Positions 5,244 to 42,876 of a stretch of DNA of 42,876 bases are shown here, one piece after another; position 1 is the stretch's first letter, and each line of letters opens with the position of its first letter. Where the stretch lies: assembly GCA_947471365.1 (NCBI GenBank), contig CANIWQ010000009.1, positions 1 to 42,876 on the forward strand. Direction: 5' to 3'. Source of the stretch: Gemmatimonadota bacterium. GTDB taxonomy: Bacteria > Gemmatimonadota > Gemmatimonadetes > Gemmatimonadales > Gemmatimonadaceae. A program made the translations under genes and the position numbers. The notes beneath the pieces were generated by a model. It was not told where the DNA came from, did no database searches, and saw only the letters and a program-made list of their open reading frames with translations.

Positions 5244-5489
5244 CTACGGCTTCGGCTTGTTGCGTTTGTGATACATCTCGAGATACAACTGCTCCACTTT
5301 GTCGCGCGCCCACGGCGTGCGGCGCAGAAACTTGAGGCTCGAACTCACGCTGGGATCGGCGGTGAAGCAGGCGATCTTTACGCGCCGCCCCATGCGTTCC
5401 CAGCCGTACCACTCCACCATCTCGGTGAGCATACGCTCAAGGGTGACGCCGTGGAGCGGGTTGGTGGAGTGATCGTGTGGGCTGGTCAT
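5244..5489 (-). CDS. VF530-family DNA-binding protein (DUF2132)
   Basis: 81 residues from the ATG at 5489. The core [20 protein letters not shown], then [13 protein letters not shown] and [18 protein letters not shown], is the recognisable VF530/DUF2132 signature, and the length is typical. VF530 of Vibrio fischeri was structurally characterised as a small DNA-binding protein; the physiological role is not established. The longer upstream reading frame overlaps the 5' region of the divergent YaiI-type gene and is not needed. No operon partner on this strand. Confidence 0.85.
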
Positions 5490-5536
5490 GAACGTGAACG
5501 ATTGCCTACTGCCGCGCGCGGCGCCAGCTTGCGCCC

Positions 5537-5995
5537 ATGAAACTTTGGATTGACGCCGACGCCGCACCCATGATGGTGAAGGAGGTGTGCTTCCGCGCCT
5601 CCGACCGGCTCACGCTCGATGCCGTCTTTGTGGCCAACCAGCGGGTGGCGCTGCCGCCGGGCTATACGCACCTCACCGCCGTGCGCGTGGACTCGGGTGC
5701 CGACGAAGCCGACCGGTATATTGCCGAGCACGCCGAGGCGGGCGATGTGGCCGTCACGGCCGACATCCCGCTCGCGGCGTTGCTTGTGCCCAAGGGCGTG
5801 GTGGTGATTGATCCGCGCGGCGAGGAGTACACGCCGGAGATCATTGGCGAGCGACTCTCGGTGCGCAACTTCATGGACGAGCTGCGCGGGCAAGGGGTTG
5901 AGACGGGCGGGCATGCGCCGTATGGCGCCAAGGAGAAGCAGGCGTTTGCGAATGCGCTGGACCGCGCGCTCACGCGGGCGATGCGGGGGCGGTAA
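5537..5995 (+). CDS. YaiI/YqxD-family protein (UPF0178)
   Basis: 152 residues, the normal length of UPF0178 proteins. The N-terminal [11 protein letters not shown] is the family hallmark, with the PIN-like acidic start. Further family features are [12 protein letters not shown], the segment [20 protein letters not shown] and NFMDELR. The fold resembles PIN nucleases, but no activity is firmly established. The 3' end overlaps the convergent FkbM methyltransferase gene by 26 nt. Confidence 0.93.
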
Positions 5996-9564: not shown

Positions 9565-10831
9565 CGGCCAGGCGCCGCAGGGGAGCGCCGTCACTCGGTT
9601 CTTCGATGACCTCGGCCCGGGGCTCATCACCGGCGCCGCAGACGACGATCCATCTGGCATTTCGACCTATTCCGTGGCCGGCGCCACGTTCGGCTACGCG
9701 CCGCTGTGGACCGCGCTCTTTGCCTTTCCGCTGATGGCCGCCGTGCAACTGATGTGCGCGCGCCTGGGCCTCGTGAGTGGTCGCGGATTGGCGGGTGTCG
9801 TCAGGCGCTACTACCCGCGCTGGGTGCTCTGGTGCGCCTGCGGCGTGCTCGTGGTGGCCAACGTGTTTAACATTGGCGCCGACCTCGGCGGCATGGCCGC
9901 CGCCACGGAGATGGTCACCGGCGTTCGTGCCGCCGTCTGGACGCCGGTGTACGCCGTGCTCCTCGTGACGGTGTTGGTATTTTCATCGTACCGTTTGATC
10001 GCGCGCGTTTTCAAGTGGATGACGCTCGTGCTCTTTGTGTATGTGATTGCTGCATTCCTGGCGCATCCGGACTGGAGCGCGGTGCTGCGAGCCACCTTCA
10101 TTCCGCACATTGAGTGGTCGCGCTCGTTTCTTGCGATGTTTGTGGGCATTCTCGGCACCACCATTAGCCCGTACCTCTTTTTCTGGCAGGCATCGCAGGA
10201 AGTGGAAGTGGTGGAGTCGCGCGGCAAGCACGCGACCACCACGCGCGACCGGGCCAGCGACGAAGAACTCCGCGCCGCACGCGTGGACGTCTTTACGGGG
10301 ATGCTGTTCTCTGGCGTGGTGATGTATTTCATCGTACTCACCTCGGCGGCCACCGTGCATGCGCACGGCTCCGCCCAGATTGCCACGGCGCAGGACGCCG
10401 CCGAGGCGCTGCGCCCCGTGGCAGGCAATGCCGCGTATTTGCTCTTCACGCTCGGCATTATCGGCACCGGCATGCTCGCCGTACCGGTGCTCGCGGGTTC
10501 AGCGGCGTATGCGATTTCGGAGGCGGAGTCTTGGCGCGGCAGTTTGGACGACCGTCCCCAGATGGCGCCACGGTTTTATCTCGTGGTCACGCTCGCCATG
10601 CTAGTCGGCCTCGTGCTCGCGGCCGCAGGATTTGACGCGGTGAAAATGCTGTTCTACGCCGCCGTTCTCAATGGCGTGCTCGCACCGCCGCTGATCGTGC
10701 TGGTCACCATGCTCTCCAGCAATCGCGAGGTGATGGGCGCTCGCGTGAACTCGCCGCTGCTCCGCTGGATTGGGTGGTTCACCGCAACTATCATGACGGT
10801 TGCGGCCATCGGGATGCTGGTGACGACGTAA
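9551..10831 (+). CDS. NRAMP-related divalent metal transporter with altered metal-site motifs
   Basis: 426 residues with about 11 hydrophobic helices in the inner membrane, the LeuT-like NRAMP layout. ATG at 9551, inside the end of the preceding gene. TM1 carries DPSG where classical MntH/NRAMP proteins have DPGN, and TM6 carries GTTISPYLFFWQASQEVEVV where they have the MPH motif with its metal-binding Met. Both substitutions remove residues that select Mn/Fe. A distinct NRAMP-related branch (NRMT) is known to carry Mg2+, so the substrate may not be Mn/Fe; this is inference. A charged cytoplasmic loop with RGKHATTTRDRASDEELRAA follows TM6. Confidence 0.88.
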   Translation: MPGTDGQAPQGSAVTRFFDDLGPGLITGAADDDPSGISTYSVAGATFGYAPLWTALFAFPLMAAVQLMCARLGLVSGRGLAGVVRRYYPRWVLWCACGVLVVANVFNIGADLGGMAAATEMVTGVRAAVWTPVYAVLLVTVLVFSSYRLIARVFKWMTLVLFVYVIAAFLAHPDWSAVLRATFIPHIEWSRSFLAMFVGILGTTISPYLFFWQASQEVEVVESRGKHATTTRDRASDEELRAARVDVFTGMLFSGVVMYFIVLTSAATVHAHGSAQIATAQDAAEALRPVAGNAAYLLFTLGIIGTGMLAVPVLAGSAAYAISEAESWRGSLDDRPQMAPRFYLVVTLAMLVGLVLAAAGFDAVKMLFYAAVLNGVLAPPLIVLVTMLSSNREVMGARVNSPLLRWIGWFTATIMTVAAIGMLVTT

Positions 10832-35646: not shown

Positions 35647-36042
35647 TTACGGCGCAACACCCCGCTTCAACAGCGGAAGCGCTGCCGGTTGGACACGAAC
35701 CCGCCGCAACAGCGCCGAGAGCATTTGTTTCACTTGCTCCGCGCGTGCATCGAGCCGTGCGTATACCGGTCCAGGGAGCGAACCGAGGTCATGCGCCAGC
35801 AGCAGGTGATAGTGCAGCTGATAGGCCGAGGCGAGCGCAATCTGCAGGAATCGAGCAAACTCGCGAGGCGTACTGTGGCCGCACCCTTCGGCGATGTTCG
35901 CAGGGATTGCCGCCGCAGACCGTAGCATCTGACCGCTGAGCCCAGGAAACGGGCGCCCGCTCGACGCGAGAAGCCCCCGATGCGTCTCAAGCACCAACTC
36001 GTGGCTTTTGGCCCACACATCAAGTTTGCGATAGTCCTGCAT
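35647..36042 (-). CDS. Four-helix-bundle protein (S23-like)
   Basis: 131 residues from the ATG at 36042, which has GGAGG 4 nt upstream. MQDYRKLDVWAKSHELVLE is the hallmark start of the four-helix-bundle (S23/IVS-encoded) family. LSGQMLRSAAAIPANIAEGC and EFARFLQIALASAYQLHYHL follow in the expected places. The first known members were encoded within 23S rRNA insertions, but many are free-standing as here. It lies antisense in the pth-ychF gap, flanked by two palindromic elements, which suggests later insertion. Role unknown. Confidence 0.88.
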   Translation of the reverse strand: MQDYRKLDVWAKSHELVLETHRGLLASSGRPFPGLSGQMLRSAAAIPANIAEGCGHSTPREFARFLQIALASAYQLHYHLLLAHDLGSLPGPVYARLDARAEQVKQMLSALLRRVRVQPAALPLLKRGVAP

Positions 36043-36131
36043 CAGACCTCCGGTTCCGTGCAATGTCGGAGGCCGCGATGCGGGAAAAGCCATCAAATGA
36101 TCGCGAGCGATTACATTTCCTTTCGTGTTCT

Positions 36132-37318: not shown

Positions 37319-39106
37319 TCAGAGCGCGAGTAGCGTCCTCACACGTGCGTCCGTCGTGCTCACAGACTCCCACGAGCCCTCGGCGAGCACGACGCCGTGG
37401 TCGAGTACCACCACGTGGTCGGCCGCGCGCGCCACGCGGAGCCGGTGCGAGACGATCACGACGGTCATTCGCGGAAGGAGCGCGCGGAGCGACTGAAGAA
37501 TCGCCGCCTCATGTTCCGCATCGAGGGCGCTCGTGGCTTCGTCGAGCACGAGCAGAGCGGGCTCCCTCAGCAGGGCGCGCGCCAGCCCCAAACGCTGCCG
37601 CTCGCCACCGGAGAGCATGGCGCCCCGATCACCGATGGGTGTATCGAGCCCCGCCAGCAATACATCCACGAACCGTGCCGACGCTGCGTCGAGGGCCGCG
37701 TGCATCGCCGCGTCGCTGGCCCCGGGTTGCGCCCACTGCAGATTCTCGCGCACGGAGCCGGGAAAGAGAACCACATCCTGCGGAAGCAGACCAACGCGTG
37801 CGCGCCACGTGCGCAGGGCCTGATCGTCGAGGACAGCACCGTCGGCGCTCACGACCCCCTCCTGTGGACGCAGTAAGCCGATGATGAGATCCACGGCGGT
37901 GCTCTTGCCAGCTCCGGAAGGGCCAACGATGGCCGTCATGCGTCCGGCCGGGAGGTGGAAGGATCCGCACTGCATCGCGGCTCGGGTCGCACCTTCGTAT
38001 TGGTATGTGACGTTGGCCAGCGCAACGGTCGGCGCGGCGGAGCCGTGCGCCACGCGCACGGGCAAGTCCGGGAGCGACTCCGAGTCCCGCTCGCTGGTCG
38101 CAATCATTTCCTGCAGCGCATCCCACGTGGCGAGCGATTCCTGGAGCGACTGCCACTGCATCTGTGCGGCCGCCACGCGCGGCACGAGCCGAGCGTAGAT
38201 CGCGAGCAAGAGGAGAAGCGCGGCCGGTGAGAGACGCAGCACCGCAAGCGCCACATACACGATGACGCCCAGCATCACCGCGGAGCCAAGGCCAACCGCC
38301 GCTGCCGCGCGCGCGCGATGGGCGTCGAACTGCCGCGCACTCTGCGTGAGCGCATCGTCCAGTCGCGTGTAGTCGCCGATCGTGCGTCGTTCCGCCGCAT
38401 AGCCCTTCACGGCTTTCATGCCGCCGATGATGTCCGTGGTCGCACGGAACAGCGCTTCGCCGAACGCCATTAACTGCGCCCCCTCAGCACGTCCCGGCGC
38501 TCGCAGCCACCGCAACAGGCCGAACAGCGCGAGCCCAGCCGCCACAACGAAGAGCGTCACGGGCCACGAGATTCGTAACGCAATCAGGAGCGACACACTC
38601 ATCGCGAGTGCTTCCGCCAGCAGATGCAACAGGAGACGCGTCGCCGCGTTGGCATGGTCGGTGTACACGGTGAGCGCCTGCACCACATCCGCACTGCGCA
38701 TCCGGACAAACTTTGGCCACGGGAGCGACACGATCGCGCGAAATAGCCGCTGGCGCTCCTGCGACACCACGTGCTGCGCGAGACGTGCGGACTGCACGGA
38801 CTCGGCTTGCACGAGCAGTGTGCGAACGCCCAACACGACCACCGTCACGGCCAAGACCACGGGCAAGGACATCGGCAGTCCAACGGAGAGCAATAAGGCT
38901 CCCACGCGCCGCGCCATGCCGTCCATGGGTCCGCTGCCGAGTGACACGCCGGCTTGCGCGAGCATGGGCACCAGGAGCAACAGCCCGGCACCCTCGGTGA
39001 GCGCGGACAACACCAGCAACAGCACGGAGCGAAGCATCGCCGCGCGCCCACGATGCCAGATCGCGAACGCAAACTCGATGAGCGACACGCGCGCCGGGCC
39101 GCTCAT
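37319..39106 (-). CDS. ABC transporter, fused permease and ATPase (RiPP exporter candidate)
   Basis: 595 residues from the ATG at 39106, which overlaps the nucleotidyltransferase stop (ATGA). About six TM helices (residues 20-310) precede a C-terminal ATPase with Walker A GPSGAGKST, Q-loop LLPQDVVLFPGSV, signature LSGGERQR, Walker B LLVLDEATSALD and VSHRLR. There is no N-terminal C39 peptidase, so any leader removal must be done by another protein. It is the last gene of the peptide locus. Lasso clusters use such single-chain half-transporters for export and self-protection; the role here is inference from position. Confidence 0.92.
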   Translation of the reverse strand: MSGPARVSLIEFAFAIWHRGRAAMLRSVLLLVLSALTEGAGLLLLVPMLAQAGVSLGSGPMDGMARRVGALLLSVGLPMSLPVVLAVTVVVLGVRTLLVQAESVQSARLAQHVVSQERQRLFRAIVSLPWPKFVRMRSADVVQALTVYTDHANAATRLLLHLLAEALAMSVSLLIALRISWPVTLFVVAAGLALFGLLRWLRAPGRAEGAQLMAFGEALFRATTDIIGGMKAVKGYAAERRTIGDYTRLDDALTQSARQFDAHRARAAAAVGLGSAVMLGVIVYVALAVLRLSPAALLLLLAIYARLVPRVAAAQMQWQSLQESLATWDALQEMIATSERDSESLPDLPVRVAHGSAAPTVALANVTYQYEGATRAAMQCGSFHLPAGRMTAIVGPSGAGKSTAVDLIIGLLRPQEGVVSADGAVLDDQALRTWRARVGLLPQDVVLFPGSVRENLQWAQPGASDAAMHAALDAASARFVDVLLAGLDTPIGDRGAMLSGGERQRLGLARALLREPALLVLDEATSALDAEHEAAILQSLRALLPRMTVVIVSHRLRVARAADHVVVLDHGVVLAEGSWESVSTTDARVRTLLAL

Positions 39107-40374
39107 CCGATCAGCCGGCGCCACGACGCCACGCTTCGCGGCACCATGCGCCAGGCGAGGCGCGCCCAGCGCAACAGCAAATACAGCGGCGCCAGCAACG
39201 CCGGAAGCCGCATCAGTTCCCACTCTCGCATGCTGGGGTATAGCGTTCGCACCAGACCGCGACGCAGTCGATCGCGTCGACGCTCTAGGCACGCCTGCTC
39301 AAACGCCGATTCTTCTTGCTCCGTCCATGCCCCGTTACGGTGCCAGTGCTCCAGCACCGTCTGCGCCAGCGCATAGACCTGCAGTTCTGCCTGAGGTGCC
39401 AGCGCCCAGCCATCGGGGACGGACACACCCAGCACCCGGCGCGCGAGTGCAGCGCCAATGCGTAACGCGGTGCATCCTCCGACGTCGCGCGCGCGCTGCC
39501 ACACCGCGGCGGAATCCAACGTCGCCCGCTGCAGGAACGTGGCGAACGCCACGAGGGACTCGAGTTCTTCCCAGTGGTGACGTGTGGCGTGCAAGGCCAA
39601 CAAGAGTACCTGATCGGCGTCACAGGGCGCCAAGACCTCCGTGCTGCCAATGCGTGTACGAATCGCGCGGGCGCAGACCTCGGCCACCGGTGGACTCCAG
39701 GGCACACGCTCGGACGCGAAGCGCCAGTGCAGCTCAACAAACGGCTCGTCTGCCGAGGGCCACGCCATCGCTGCGTGCCCCTGCGCGGCGAACAACACGG
39801 CTTCCTGCGCCGGCGACATGCCGCTGCGCGAGCGCAGCCCGGCGCTCACCAGCGCGCGCCGCGCCGCTCGAAACTCGGACGGCGTCACAACAAAATCAAG
39901 ATCCACACAGGTCCGCGCGCCTGAATCGCCGTACGCGGCAAGCGCGAGCGCGGGGCCTTTGTACGCGAGCGCATCGACCCCCGCCTGCGCAAACGCCGCC
40001 GCCACGCGCGCGAGCGCCCCGGTGGCGCGAAGCGCCTCTACCGCATTGGCGCGGCGCGCCAAACGCCACGCCGCTGTTGCGTCCGCCGGAATCAATGCGG
40101 CCGGAAGCCTCTCGAGACGCGACCCCACGAGCGCAACCATGCGATGGGTGTTCGCCAGTTGCAACACCTCGAACCAATCCGTCACGCATCCGGCCGCCTG
40201 TTCAAACGCGCGCACCGAACCCACACCCACCTGTAGGCGACCGGCCGCCACCAGTAACGCAAAAGCGGGTGGCTCGTGCGGAGCGATCCGGTTGTCGATG
40301 GCCATCACCTCAGCCTTCGTCGGGCTTGCCGTCTGCGCCGCGTGCGCGGGTTCACGGAGGCGGGCACTAGGCAC
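39103..40374 (-). CDS. Family-5 nucleotidyltransferase of RiPP loci (PF14907-like)
   Basis: About 423 residues with a GTG at 40374, overlapping the kinase stop; an ATG at 40305 is an alternative start with a close GAGG. Core motif ALAYKGPALALAAYGDSGARTCVDLDFVV (about residues 135-165) holds the nucleotidyltransferase G-x and D-x-D acidic residues. Later parts include VELHWRFASERVPW and LLLALHATRHHWEELESLV. This family is frequent in lasso-like clusters with an HPr-kinase-like gene, and may add nucleotides or phosphates to the peptide. It overlaps both neighbours, indicating coupling. Confidence 0.85.
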   Translation of the reverse strand: MPSARLREPAHAAQTASPTKAEVMAIDNRIAPHEPPAFALLVAAGRLQVGVGSVRAFEQAAGCVTDWFEVLQLANTHRMVALVGSRLERLPAALIPADATAAWRLARRANAVEALRATGALARVAAAFAQAGVDALAYKGPALALAAYGDSGARTCVDLDFVVTPSEFRAARRALVSAGLRSRSGMSPAQEAVLFAAQGHAAMAWPSADEPFVELHWRFASERVPWSPPVAEVCARAIRTRIGSTEVLAPCDADQVLLLALHATRHHWEELESLVAFATFLQRATLDSAAVWQRARDVGGCTALRIGAALARRVLGVSVPDGWALAPQAELQVYALAQTVLEHWHRNGAWTEQEESAFEQACLERRRDRLRRGLVRTLYPSMREWELMRLPALLAPLYLLLRWARLAWRMVPRSVASWRRLIG

Positions 40375-41329
40375 GACTCGCTCCGAGCACGACGTCGACG
40401 AGGGTCGACAGGCGCGCCATGTCCGCGTGCGGCGTCACACGACGCAGCGGCACCCGTTCGGTGACGCGCGCGATCATGGTGAGTTCTGCGGCTCGCATGT
40501 CGCCGTCAAGCAGGTAGTTCGCCGAGGTTTCAGAAACGAGGTCCAGCAACGCCTCCGCGCCGCGCGCCGGCCCGACATACGGAGCCCGCTCGTCCGTCGA
40601 CCGCGGCATGAGCAAAAATATGCCACCCAACGGCACTGGCTCGCCCGACAATCCGGCGCCGAATTCGTCGAGTGGAAACGCAAGCTTTGGCCACCCCGGC
40701 GCCAAGGCGGTGAGGCGCGCGTCATCGCCCACGAGCGCATGCGCCGACTCCGGCCAGAGCCGCAAGTGCGCATACGCCGGGGACGCTATCACGAGGCCAC
40801 CCGTCAGGCGCAACGCCAGCACATCGTCCGTCATCACGGCATGGCCGCGCAAGGCAAAGGCAGCGGCGGTGGTGCTCTTCCCCGCCCCAGGCGCCCCGCA
40901 GAACGCGATAACCTGCCGGTCGATCACCACCGCACTGGCATGCAACGAGAGCACGCCGAGCCGACGCAGCACATAGCCGAGCACTGGACCCAACAAGTAG
41001 ACCGTCGTGTCGGCGAGCGTCATGGTAGTCGGCCACACCGCCCACACTTCGCGGCCGTCGGCACGCACATAAAACGTGGTGCCGTCGTCATAGCTGAGGC
41101 GCACGCCGTCGCGACCGCGGAGCCAGGCGGCCTCGAGCACCGGCGCGTCCTCGTCGCGCGTGTCGGCGCGGTACACCAGGCCGTCCTCCGCCAACGGTTC
41201 ATTGGCCCACAACGGGACGCGCTGCAGGTGCACCTCCACGTCTGGCACCGAGCCGATGGCCGCAGCGCGTAGACCCGAGAGCGCCCCGTCGGTCCGAACC
41301 GTGAGTCCGCACAACGCGTAATCAGGCAT
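40367..41329 (-). CDS. HPr-kinase-like protein of RiPP loci
   Basis: 320 residues from the ATG at 41329, overlapping the methyltransferase stop by 8 nt. The central P-loop kinase core reads SLHASAVVIDRQVIAFCGAP with Walker A GAPGAGKST, then GHAVMTDDVLALRL with the Asp pair typical of HPrK, and YAHLRLWPESAHALVGDD. Unlike metabolic HprK it has no HPr-type serine-phosphorylation context; such proteins in lasso clusters (for example paeninodin) phosphorylate the precursor near its C-terminus. The long upstream frame is antiphase of the methyltransferase gene. The kinase role on these peptides is inference. Confidence 0.88.
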   Translation of the reverse strand: MPDYALCGLTVRTDGALSGLRAAAIGSVPDVEVHLQRVPLWANEPLAEDGLVYRADTRDEDAPVLEAAWLRGRDGVRLSYDDGTTFYVRADGREVWAVWPTTMTLADTTVYLLGPVLGYVLRRLGVLSLHASAVVIDRQVIAFCGAPGAGKSTTAAAFALRGHAVMTDDVLALRLTGGLVIASPAYAHLRLWPESAHALVGDDARLTALAPGWPKLAFPLDEFGAGLSGEPVPLGGIFLLMPRSTDERAPYVGPARGAEALLDLVSETSANYLLDGDMRAAELTMIARVTERVPLRRVTPHADMARLSTLVDVVLGASRA

Positions 41330-42311
41330 GCCTGTGGCCAGTAGAATCGTTGGCCCGCCGTGCCTCCTGCTCGCGCACCGCACGCGCCGGCAGCAACTCG
41401 GCCAGCGACGATTGGCGAAACGCCGTCGCCCGACCATCAACGGCAGACTCGTGCGTCGTGTCCCACGAGTACACGTATGTCTCGCCCACGAGCAGGGCGC
41501 GCCACGCGACGTGCACGCGATCACCGGGCGACACCGGCAACGCGGTCGTGAGCGGAAAGAGCGCCTGCCCGTAGAGGGCGCGCGGTGCCGCCGGTGCGTT
41601 CGAGATGGCGGCGCCGCCCGCCATCTCCGCATCAAACCAGACCGCGATCCCCTCCATGAGCCCACGGTGTTCGATCGTCCACTGCACGTCGCCGGCGACA
41701 TTGGGGGTCGAGACGGTTTCGAGATCGATGCGCGCCAGTTCACGCGGCGCGGCCAGTTGATCGGACGCACCGAGTCGCACACGCCACCACACATCGCGGA
41801 TGCGGCGCGCCACTGCGCGGCGACTGATCCCGTATGGCATCTCGCCAAGCGACGCGTCCGACGCGAGCGTCTGACACGGGGCGGCCCACAGGGTGTCGCG
41901 CAACACCGTCAAGCGCGCGTGTGGGACTAGATGCCGAGCGCGCGCATCGGCGATGATGGCGAACCGATGACTGAAGGTCGGCAACACACCGCGCAGATCC
42001 TCAATCAGCACATCGCCCCGTTCGGGGAGCGAGAGTGTGAGCGCATCACCGTGCAACACCTCGACGATGTCGGCGTAGCCGTTGTCGGCCACCAACTCGC
42101 GCGCGACATCGGCGACGTCACTGCACTCAATGGCATACACGCGGCGCGCACCAGCCCGCGCCGCGGCCACCGCAAAAAACCCGGCGCCGGTTCCAATCTC
42201 GACGACCACATCGCCCGGGCGCACGGCCGCGGCAATAGCGGCGAGGTACGCCTGGGTCCGCTCGGGGTCCGCCAGCATCGCGTCGTAATCGTGCAGGTCG
42301 TACTTCACCAT
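41322..42311 (-). CDS. PRMT-like SAM methyltransferase of the peptide locus
   Basis: About 329 residues from the ATG at 42311 (MVKYDLHDYDAMLADPERTQ, the usual PRMT-type entry helix). An upstream ATG at 42383 would only add sequence overlapping the precursor gene. Motif I VVEIGTGAGFFAVAAARAGA, then RRVYAIECSDVADVARE and VLIEDLRGVLPTF are clear. A PRMT carries a double-Glu loop; here only the first Glu (IED) is seen, so activity on arginine is uncertain. A C-terminal beta-barrel-like part follows. It lies between the precursors and the kinase, so the peptide is the likely substrate. Confidence 0.85.
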   Translation of the reverse strand: MVKYDLHDYDAMLADPERTQAYLAAIAAAVRPGDVVVEIGTGAGFFAVAAARAGARRVYAIECSDVADVARELVADNGYADIVEVLHGDALTLSLPERGDVLIEDLRGVLPTFSHRFAIIADARARHLVPHARLTVLRDTLWAAPCQTLASDASLGEMPYGISRRAVARRIRDVWWRVRLGASDQLAAPRELARIDLETVSTPNVAGDVQWTIEHRGLMEGIAVWFDAEMAGGAAISNAPAAPRALYGQALFPLTTALPVSPGDRVHVAWRALLVGETYVYSWDTTHESAVDGRATAFRQSSLAELLPARAVREQEARRANDSTGHRHA

Positions 42312-42348: not shown

Positions 42349-42531
42349 TCAGCGCGTCTTTTTCCGGCCACCCGTTCCGCCATCGGCTGCGGCGGCGTTC
42401 GAGAATCCCGCGCGCTTGGTGTGCTCGCTCAGCGAGCCAAATCGCCGCAACGAGGGCGTGGCATACGGAGCGCGATCCACACCGGTCTTCGGCGTGCGGG
42501 GCTGGTGCCGGACGGCATCGATCGTTTTCAT
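42349..42531 (-). CDS. Lasso-type RiPP precursor peptide 1
   Basis: 60 residues from the ATG at 42531, with GGAG 4 nt upstream. Residues 23-38 read YATPSLRRFGSLSEHT, which fits the lasso leader spacing: Tyr -17, Pro -14, Leu -12, Gly -8, Thr -2. The following 22 residues begin KRAGFSN and end DGGTGGRKKTR. The likely core starts at residue 40. Its only acid is Asp at core position 11, whereas lasso rings close on Asp/Glu 7-9. The second precursor shares the leader and tail. The gene stops 37 nt before the methyltransferase. Confidence 0.8.
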   Translation of the reverse strand: MKTIDAVRHQPRTPKTGVDRAPYATPSLRRFGSLSEHTKRAGFSNAAAADGGTGGRKKTR

Positions 42532-42597
42532 CACTCTCCATGGTGTGTCGGTTCGCACCGCCGAACGCCGCACTCGGAAGGCGGGTGTCGGCGACGG

Positions 42598-42778
42598 CTA
42601 TCTGGTCTTTTTCATGGTACCTGTTCCACCATCTAAGACTGTGCTGGTGTTCGCAACCGCGCCGGTGCGCCGGCTGAGCACGCCAAAGCGTTGTAAAACC
42701 GGCGTCGCATAGGCACCACGAACCTTATGTAGTTTCGGACGACGAAGCCGTTCCGTTCACTTCCAATGCATCGGTCAT
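42598..42778 (-). pseudogene. Lasso-type RiPP precursor peptide 2, frame-interrupted
   Basis: Read directly on the minus strand and too short for a plain ORF scan. An ATG at 42778 has GAGGG 5 nt upstream, but its frame hits TAA at 42727-42725. Reading one base on at that point restores an open frame to TAG at 42600-42598, giving a 59-residue product. It then has exactly 22 residues before YATPVLQRFGVLSRRT, the same as precursor 1, and ends DGGTGTMKKTR. The in-frame core region has no Asp/Glu at 7-9 either (Asp at 10). The break may be a mutation, sequencing error or programmed +1 shift. Confidence 0.75.
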
Positions 42779-42876
42779 AACTACCCTCGGGGGGAGGGGC
42801 GGGGAGTGCGAACTAGTTACAGGAAGCATCCGGTTCGCAGCGAACGACGATCAGGGCATACATAATCAATAGAGAC
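42779..42876 (-). promoter_or_regulatory. Putative control region of the peptide locus
   Basis: The 98 nt upstream of precursor 2 hold a perfect inverted repeat GTTCGC-A-GCGAAC (42833-42845) and a palindrome AACTAGTT (42811-42818). No convincing promoter is seen, and the window ends here. Either palindrome could be an operator; the regulator is unknown. Confidence 0.35.

Follow-up and report, generated by a model that had tools for sequence, protein, structure and literature searches.

The window, by which we mean the whole 42,876-nucleotide stretch analysed, is an entire contig (C9) of a Gemmatimonadota bacterium, and close to its right end the minus strand encodes two paralogous short peptides, A1 (42598..42778, with an ATG at 42778) and A2 (42349..42531), which are precursors of knotted "lasso" peptides. 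Both contain, as the preliminary description had read them, YATPxLxRFGxLSxxT followed by DGGTGxxKKTR, with the leader spacing Y-17, P-14, L-12, G-8 and T-2 exact in each, and 49% of 50 aligned residues are identical between them (E 7e-7 when searched against their own genome). A2 (MKTIDAVRHQPRTPKTGVDRAPYATPSLRRFGSLSEHTKRAGFSNAAAADGGTGGRKKTR) is an intact open reading frame of 60 aa that starts with an ATG at 42531, has GGAG upstream and 22 residues ahead of the Tyr, and has its probable ring Asp codon at 42382-42384. A1, upstream of A2 on the minus strand, reads ...YATPVLQRFGVLSRRTGAVANTSTVLDGGTGTMKKTR, continues beyond T-2 as GAVANTSTVLDGGTGTMKKTR, and has its probable ring Asp codon at 42631-42633.

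Four further genes follow on the same strand. M, a methyltransferase predicted to have a protein arginine methyltransferase (PRMT) fold, occupies 41322..42311 with its start taken at MVKYDL, a longer open reading frame from 42383 overlapping A2; K, an HPr-kinase-related putative peptide kinase with a His, a G..GKS and an Asp-Asp motif, lies at 40367..41848 (start codon uncertain); N, an NTP_transf_5 nucleotidyltransferase (PF14907, 159 bits), at 39103..40374; and D, an ABC exporter with membrane and ATPase domain matches, at 37319..39292 (start uncertain). Beyond D on the window side there is a YchF GTPase gene, and a gene for a 23S rRNA intervening-sequence-type protein (PF05635) is found at 35647-36096, minus strand.

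The cyclase, PqqD-like and transglutaminase-like protease genes that had been predicted to lie past 42876 are present on a second contig, C66. The right end of the window (42728..42876, no strand) matches the end of C66 (C66:15997-16145) over exactly 149 bases, without mismatch, and this sequence occurs at only two places in the genome, the ends of C9 and C66; the overlap joins the window to B1, B2 and C, all directed into A1, for a joined gene order of B1-B2-C-A1-A2-M-K-N-D. Among these enzymes, B2 (transglutaminase-like) matches lasso_biosyn_B2 (NF033537) at 76.8 bits against a cutoff of 33, and PF13471 at 78.3 bits. The NCBIfam scores of B1, K and C fall under the curated cutoffs: B1 (PqqD-like, L014:5314-5655) has lasso_PqqD_Bac as its best NCBIfam match (58 bits, E 7.5e-16, curated cutoff 80), and C, an asparagine-synthetase-like cyclase that matches PF00733 above cutoff, has lass_lactam_cya as its best NCBIfam match, though below the curated cutoff. 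Ribosomal protein-like genes (L014:3029-5258; bL9, bS18 and bS6 by eye) immediately precede B1 but lie on the other strand. A sister genome of the same genus (G031) contains the same operon in the same order on one contig, both A1 and A2 included. The leader and the lasso enzymes on C66 bear out the proposal of lasso-type precursors, and we are confident that the locus as a whole is best explained as a complete operon for lasso peptides in a Gemmatimonadota bacterium, with the modification, cleavage and ring steps proposed below.

Mechanistically, we infer a route in which B1, as the PqqD-like recognition element, would bind the YxxPxL leader. K would phosphorylate the conserved Thr in the C-terminal [KR]T motif, a phosphate to which N may next add a sugar or a nucleotide, and M would methylate the peptide. 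B2 would cut two residues on from the start of the conserved leader Thr (that is, after T-2 and X-1), C would link the N-terminus thus freed to the Asp side chain of DGGTG, and D would export the product.

Distribution of M-bearing clusters

Clusters were sought with M as the query; within the family to which the window belongs, 26 of 179 genomes have it, as do 40 of 395 sampled across the phylum. B2 was present in 23 of the 26 M-bearing genomes, versus 83 of 179 overall in that family (Fisher p 2.5e-6). A scan of species genomes with M returned 80 loci, the better of which come from Gemmatimonadota, Acidobacteriota, Cyanobacteria (Cyanosarcina, Nodosilinea), Rokubacteria, Mameliella and others, and most of the closer loci encode B1, B2, C, K and N together with one to three precursors. 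Homologous precursors, whose presence beside modifying enzymes had been proposed as a check, adjoin the same enzymes in dozens of clusters; this conservation, together with that in G031, ruled out a chance similarity of two small open reading frames. At six M loci (L067, L074, L077 and the Sphingomonas loci L100, L104 and L110), no precursor matched the search patterns used. In another genus, two precursors lie far apart in an operon with a single enzyme set (L056, at 5449-5760 and 9691-9897, and L084), one of each pair predicting a 9-residue and the other a 10-residue ring. Lasso clusters with K- and N-like genes and different precursors, most with Cys and with tails ending in KTS, SR or similar, also occur in the same bacterial family (L206, L209, L212, L213 and L214).

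The subfamily that combines a fixed tail with a kinase, a nucleotidyltransferase and a methyltransferase resembling eukaryotic PRMTs in its build is apparently undescribed, and a dedicated paper on Gemmatimonadota lasso peptides was not found in the literature searched, subscription journals lying outside its coverage. Judged from sequence, three things appear to be new here: an M-K-N subfamily spread over several phyla, whose core reads DGG...[KR]T; an enzyme of PRMT fold; and the prediction of rings larger than nine residues. A multi-phylum lasso subfamily is thereby defined in little-studied bacteria, with three tailoring genes per operon.

Ring residue and ring size

To place the ring, we compared precursors encoded at M-bearing loci in several phyla, 58 different sequences collected with a pattern that allowed Y/F/W/H at -17 and T/S at -2. 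Position -17 was Tyr or Trp, and position -2 Thr, in all 58. With core positions numbered from T-2, and reading from core 6 onward, the first Asp or Glu fell at position 8 in four precursors, 9 in 32, 10 in 17 and 11 in five; this residue at core 8-11 was Asp in 56 and Glu in two, and was followed by Gly in 42 of the 58. The homologous Asp or Glu stands at core 8-9 in 36 of 58, and at 10 in A1 and 11 in A2 if the leader is cut after T-2/X-1, just where the single Asp had been placed under standard cleavage. From the missing Asp or Glu at core 7-9, the preliminary description had concluded that either cleavage is displaced or the product is not a classic lasso; that choice is too narrow, as in relatives the homologous Asp stands at 9 in 32 of the 58 precursors. 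Because the same Asp is at core 9 in these relatives, the DGGTG Asp is the probable ring-closing residue. It is thus the homologue of an Asp at 9, a classical place, with the ring segment probably one to two residues longer in the window peptides. The "new conserved tail" is accordingly better described as acceptor, loop and tail, since DGGTGxxKKTR begins at the probable ring acceptor, and the variable part would be the ring.

Across the position classes the residues at core 2-3 follow a similar pattern, with x-[VAIT]-[GDS] tending to hold core 1-3, and the five Cys-bearing precursors, all with exactly two, have one Cys at core 4 and the other 6-7 residues past the Asp. The core 1-3 pattern and the ring Cys at core 4 hold their places whether the Asp stands at 10 or 11, which suggests additional residues within the ring. 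The paired Cys of these five relatives would fit a ring-tail disulfide, and the product of the window peptides would be a threaded lariat. Reviews give known lasso rings as 7-9 residues, so that canonical cleavage would yield rings of 10 (A1) and 11 (A2) residues, beyond the known range.

A real possibility, though one we hold at less than even confidence, is that the ring has the usual nine residues and that B2 cleaves beyond the site given by the T-2 rule, by one residue in A1 and by two in A2, leaving the Thr at -3 or -4. Ring size would then stay within the known range, and A2 would begin with Gly, a common first core residue; however, the positions of x-[VAIT]-[GDS] and of the Cys at core 4 point to extra residues within the ring and not at the junction, and an analogue with a 10-residue ring can be made in vitro by the enzymes of fusilassin (review PMC8498205). 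The larger rings make a question testable, namely whether native lasso rings of more than nine residues exist, with 22 of the 58 precursors predicting 10 or 11.

Conserved tail, kinase and nucleotidyltransferase

In 48 of the 58 precursors, [KR][TS] stands at the C-terminus with no more than two residues after it, and by analogy the tail Thr of [KR]T is likely to be the kinase site. The kinase His, the P-loop GKS and the Asp-Asp are kept in 12 of 12 aligned K proteins, and BsfK requires the matching residues (PMC10368454). BsfK acts on core Ser3, so the site of K need not be the C-terminal Thr. Modification of the tail, which had been read from its conservation, does seem likely with kinase, nucleotidyltransferase and methyltransferase genes in the same operon. 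Similar precursors also occur in clusters of the same family that have K and N but no detectable M (L195, L196, L201 and L202), and DGG is present in three of the four: the tails read DGG...RRT or KRT in L195 and L201, DGG...RTG in L202 and DSK...NRTF in L196. The tail therefore tracks K and N rather than M, and these four clusters ruled out the tail motif as a substrate signature of M.

Methyltransferase M

Structurally, M resembles PRMTs along its whole length. An AlphaFold2 model built with 11 homologues (pLDDT 86) has both a Rossmann domain and a PRMT barrel domain, Foldseek and VIA-align match it to PRMTs throughout, the best with Z 33.6, an rmsd of 2.6 and 24% identity across 306 residues, and a profile search of PDB sequences likewise returned PRMTs (E about 1e-36). 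PRMTs are characterized by a double-E loop, whose two Glu bind the guanidinium group, a THW loop and an active-site Met. In M, an invariant Asp (D105) takes the place of the first Glu in the double-E loop and the second position is variable (S/G/A/E/D/R), the Met position is an invariant Arg (R107), and the THW motif is not conserved among the aligned M proteins, where the stretch reads, for example, ALYG, AAHG or LLYG. Since M fails the arginine-binding signature, we do not call it a PRMT despite its PRMT-like fold.

Possible, if rather unlikely, is that M O-methylates a carboxylate, either the C-terminus or an Asp side chain, in the manner of LasF, StspM and the PIMT-type enzymes. The invariant R107 at the PRMT Met position could bind an anion, and the lasso methylations reviewed fall on carboxylates (PMC9266682); against this, M lies outside the LasF, StspM and PIMT families, the lactam requires the carboxylate of the ring Asp, and the reading of the acceptor pocket is indirect. 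Aspartimide formation at Asp-Gly by a PIMT-type M was ruled out, M being PRMT-like and the Asp likely used in the ring. It is unlikely that M is a true protein arginine methyltransferase acting on Arg or Lys of the KKTR tail: the profile E-value, the full-length fold match and the conserved basic residues of the tail would favour this, but the double-E loop has Asp for its first Glu and no fixed second residue, the THW His is lost, many M-associated precursors have no tail Arg, and basic tails of a similar kind are also found where M is missing. For the acceptor of M we have a slight preference for a carboxylate. A bolder reading, less likely than not, would combine native rings of 10 and 11 residues with methylation by a PRMT-fold enzyme whose arginine-binding loop has been exchanged for a new acceptor site.

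An additional domain of ~65 residues, absent from the M of the window, is found at the C-terminus of M proteins from L047, L051, L052, L053, L055 and L056; compared with B1 as a possible second recognition element, this extension gave a profile comparison probability of 10%. M-like domains also occur inside giant open frames of about 2900-5700 aa (L215:3835-4671 in G406:C290, G366:C169 and G296:C235), where the Pfam matches of L215, namely condensation, AMP-binding, methyltransferase (including the PRMT5 model) and carrier domains, indicate a nonribosomal peptide synthetase module. No mention of lasso peptides and PRMTs together was found in the literature searched (subscription journals outside coverage), and with M an enzyme fold best known from histone and protein methyltransferases would enter peptide natural-product biosynthesis.

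Reading frame of A1

In this assembly A1 has no start codon in its own frame. Between the start of the ATG at 42778 and the Tyr codon lie 67 nt, or 22 codons plus one base, and alignment with G031 locates an extra T at 42727 (minus strand) that shifts the frame. In G031, A1 is in frame without this T (L045:9399-9578, MTDALEVNGTASSSETTKVRGAYATP...) and has 22 residues before the Tyr; the 22-residue spacing claimed for both peptides thus stands for A2, and for A1 in G031 only. The T is the first base past the C66/C9 overlap, so a strain variant or an assembly error is possible besides a real frameshift. From KVRGA on, 16 of 43 codons differ between A1 and its G031 counterpart and 11 of those 16 changes are synonymous, which points to selection on the A1 peptide. 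We doubt that A1 is a pseudogene in the window's species, with A2 as the sole product: the frame is indeed broken in the sequence as given, but the indel sits exactly at the contig break and the codon changes are mostly synonymous. A1 is probably functional in the species, and the break recent, as a strain variant or an assembly artefact.

Comparison with known systems

Type I PRMTs (PRMT2, PRMT6) share the whole fold of M (the match at Z 33.6), as far as the predicted model goes, and differ in that M has neither a kept double-E loop nor THW and is encoded in a bacterial peptide operon. For paeninodin we know of no DGG motif and no methyltransferase. Its kinase systems (PadeK/ThcoK; PMC9266682) are alike in having a C-terminal hydroxyl residue conserved alongside a kinase gene, and unlike in that this residue is Ser. 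Lassomycin LasF, StspM and the PIMT-type enzymes (PMC9266682) also place a methyltransferase gene within a lasso operon, but belong to O-methyltransferase or PIMT families, whereas the window's M has a predicted PRMT fold with a C-terminal barrel domain. The Bradymonadales bsf system (BsfA/K/B1/B2) shares the kinase His, GKS and Asp-Asp, the split B1/B2 and the K and N genes, and differs in having Ile at -2, Asp8 as its ring residue and core Ser3 as the phosphorylated position, the available part of its description (PMC10368454) mentioning no methyltransferase. Pseudomycoidin (psmK, psmN; Bacillus pseudomycoides), in which the modified C-terminal Ser depends on both the kinase gene and the nucleotidyltransferase gene (PMC9266682), is by its description similar in combining lasso core enzymes, a kinase of HPr type and a nucleotidyltransferase; it modifies a terminal Ser, whereas the window operon has a tail of [KR]T plus 0-2 residues and adds a PRMT-fold methyltransferase.
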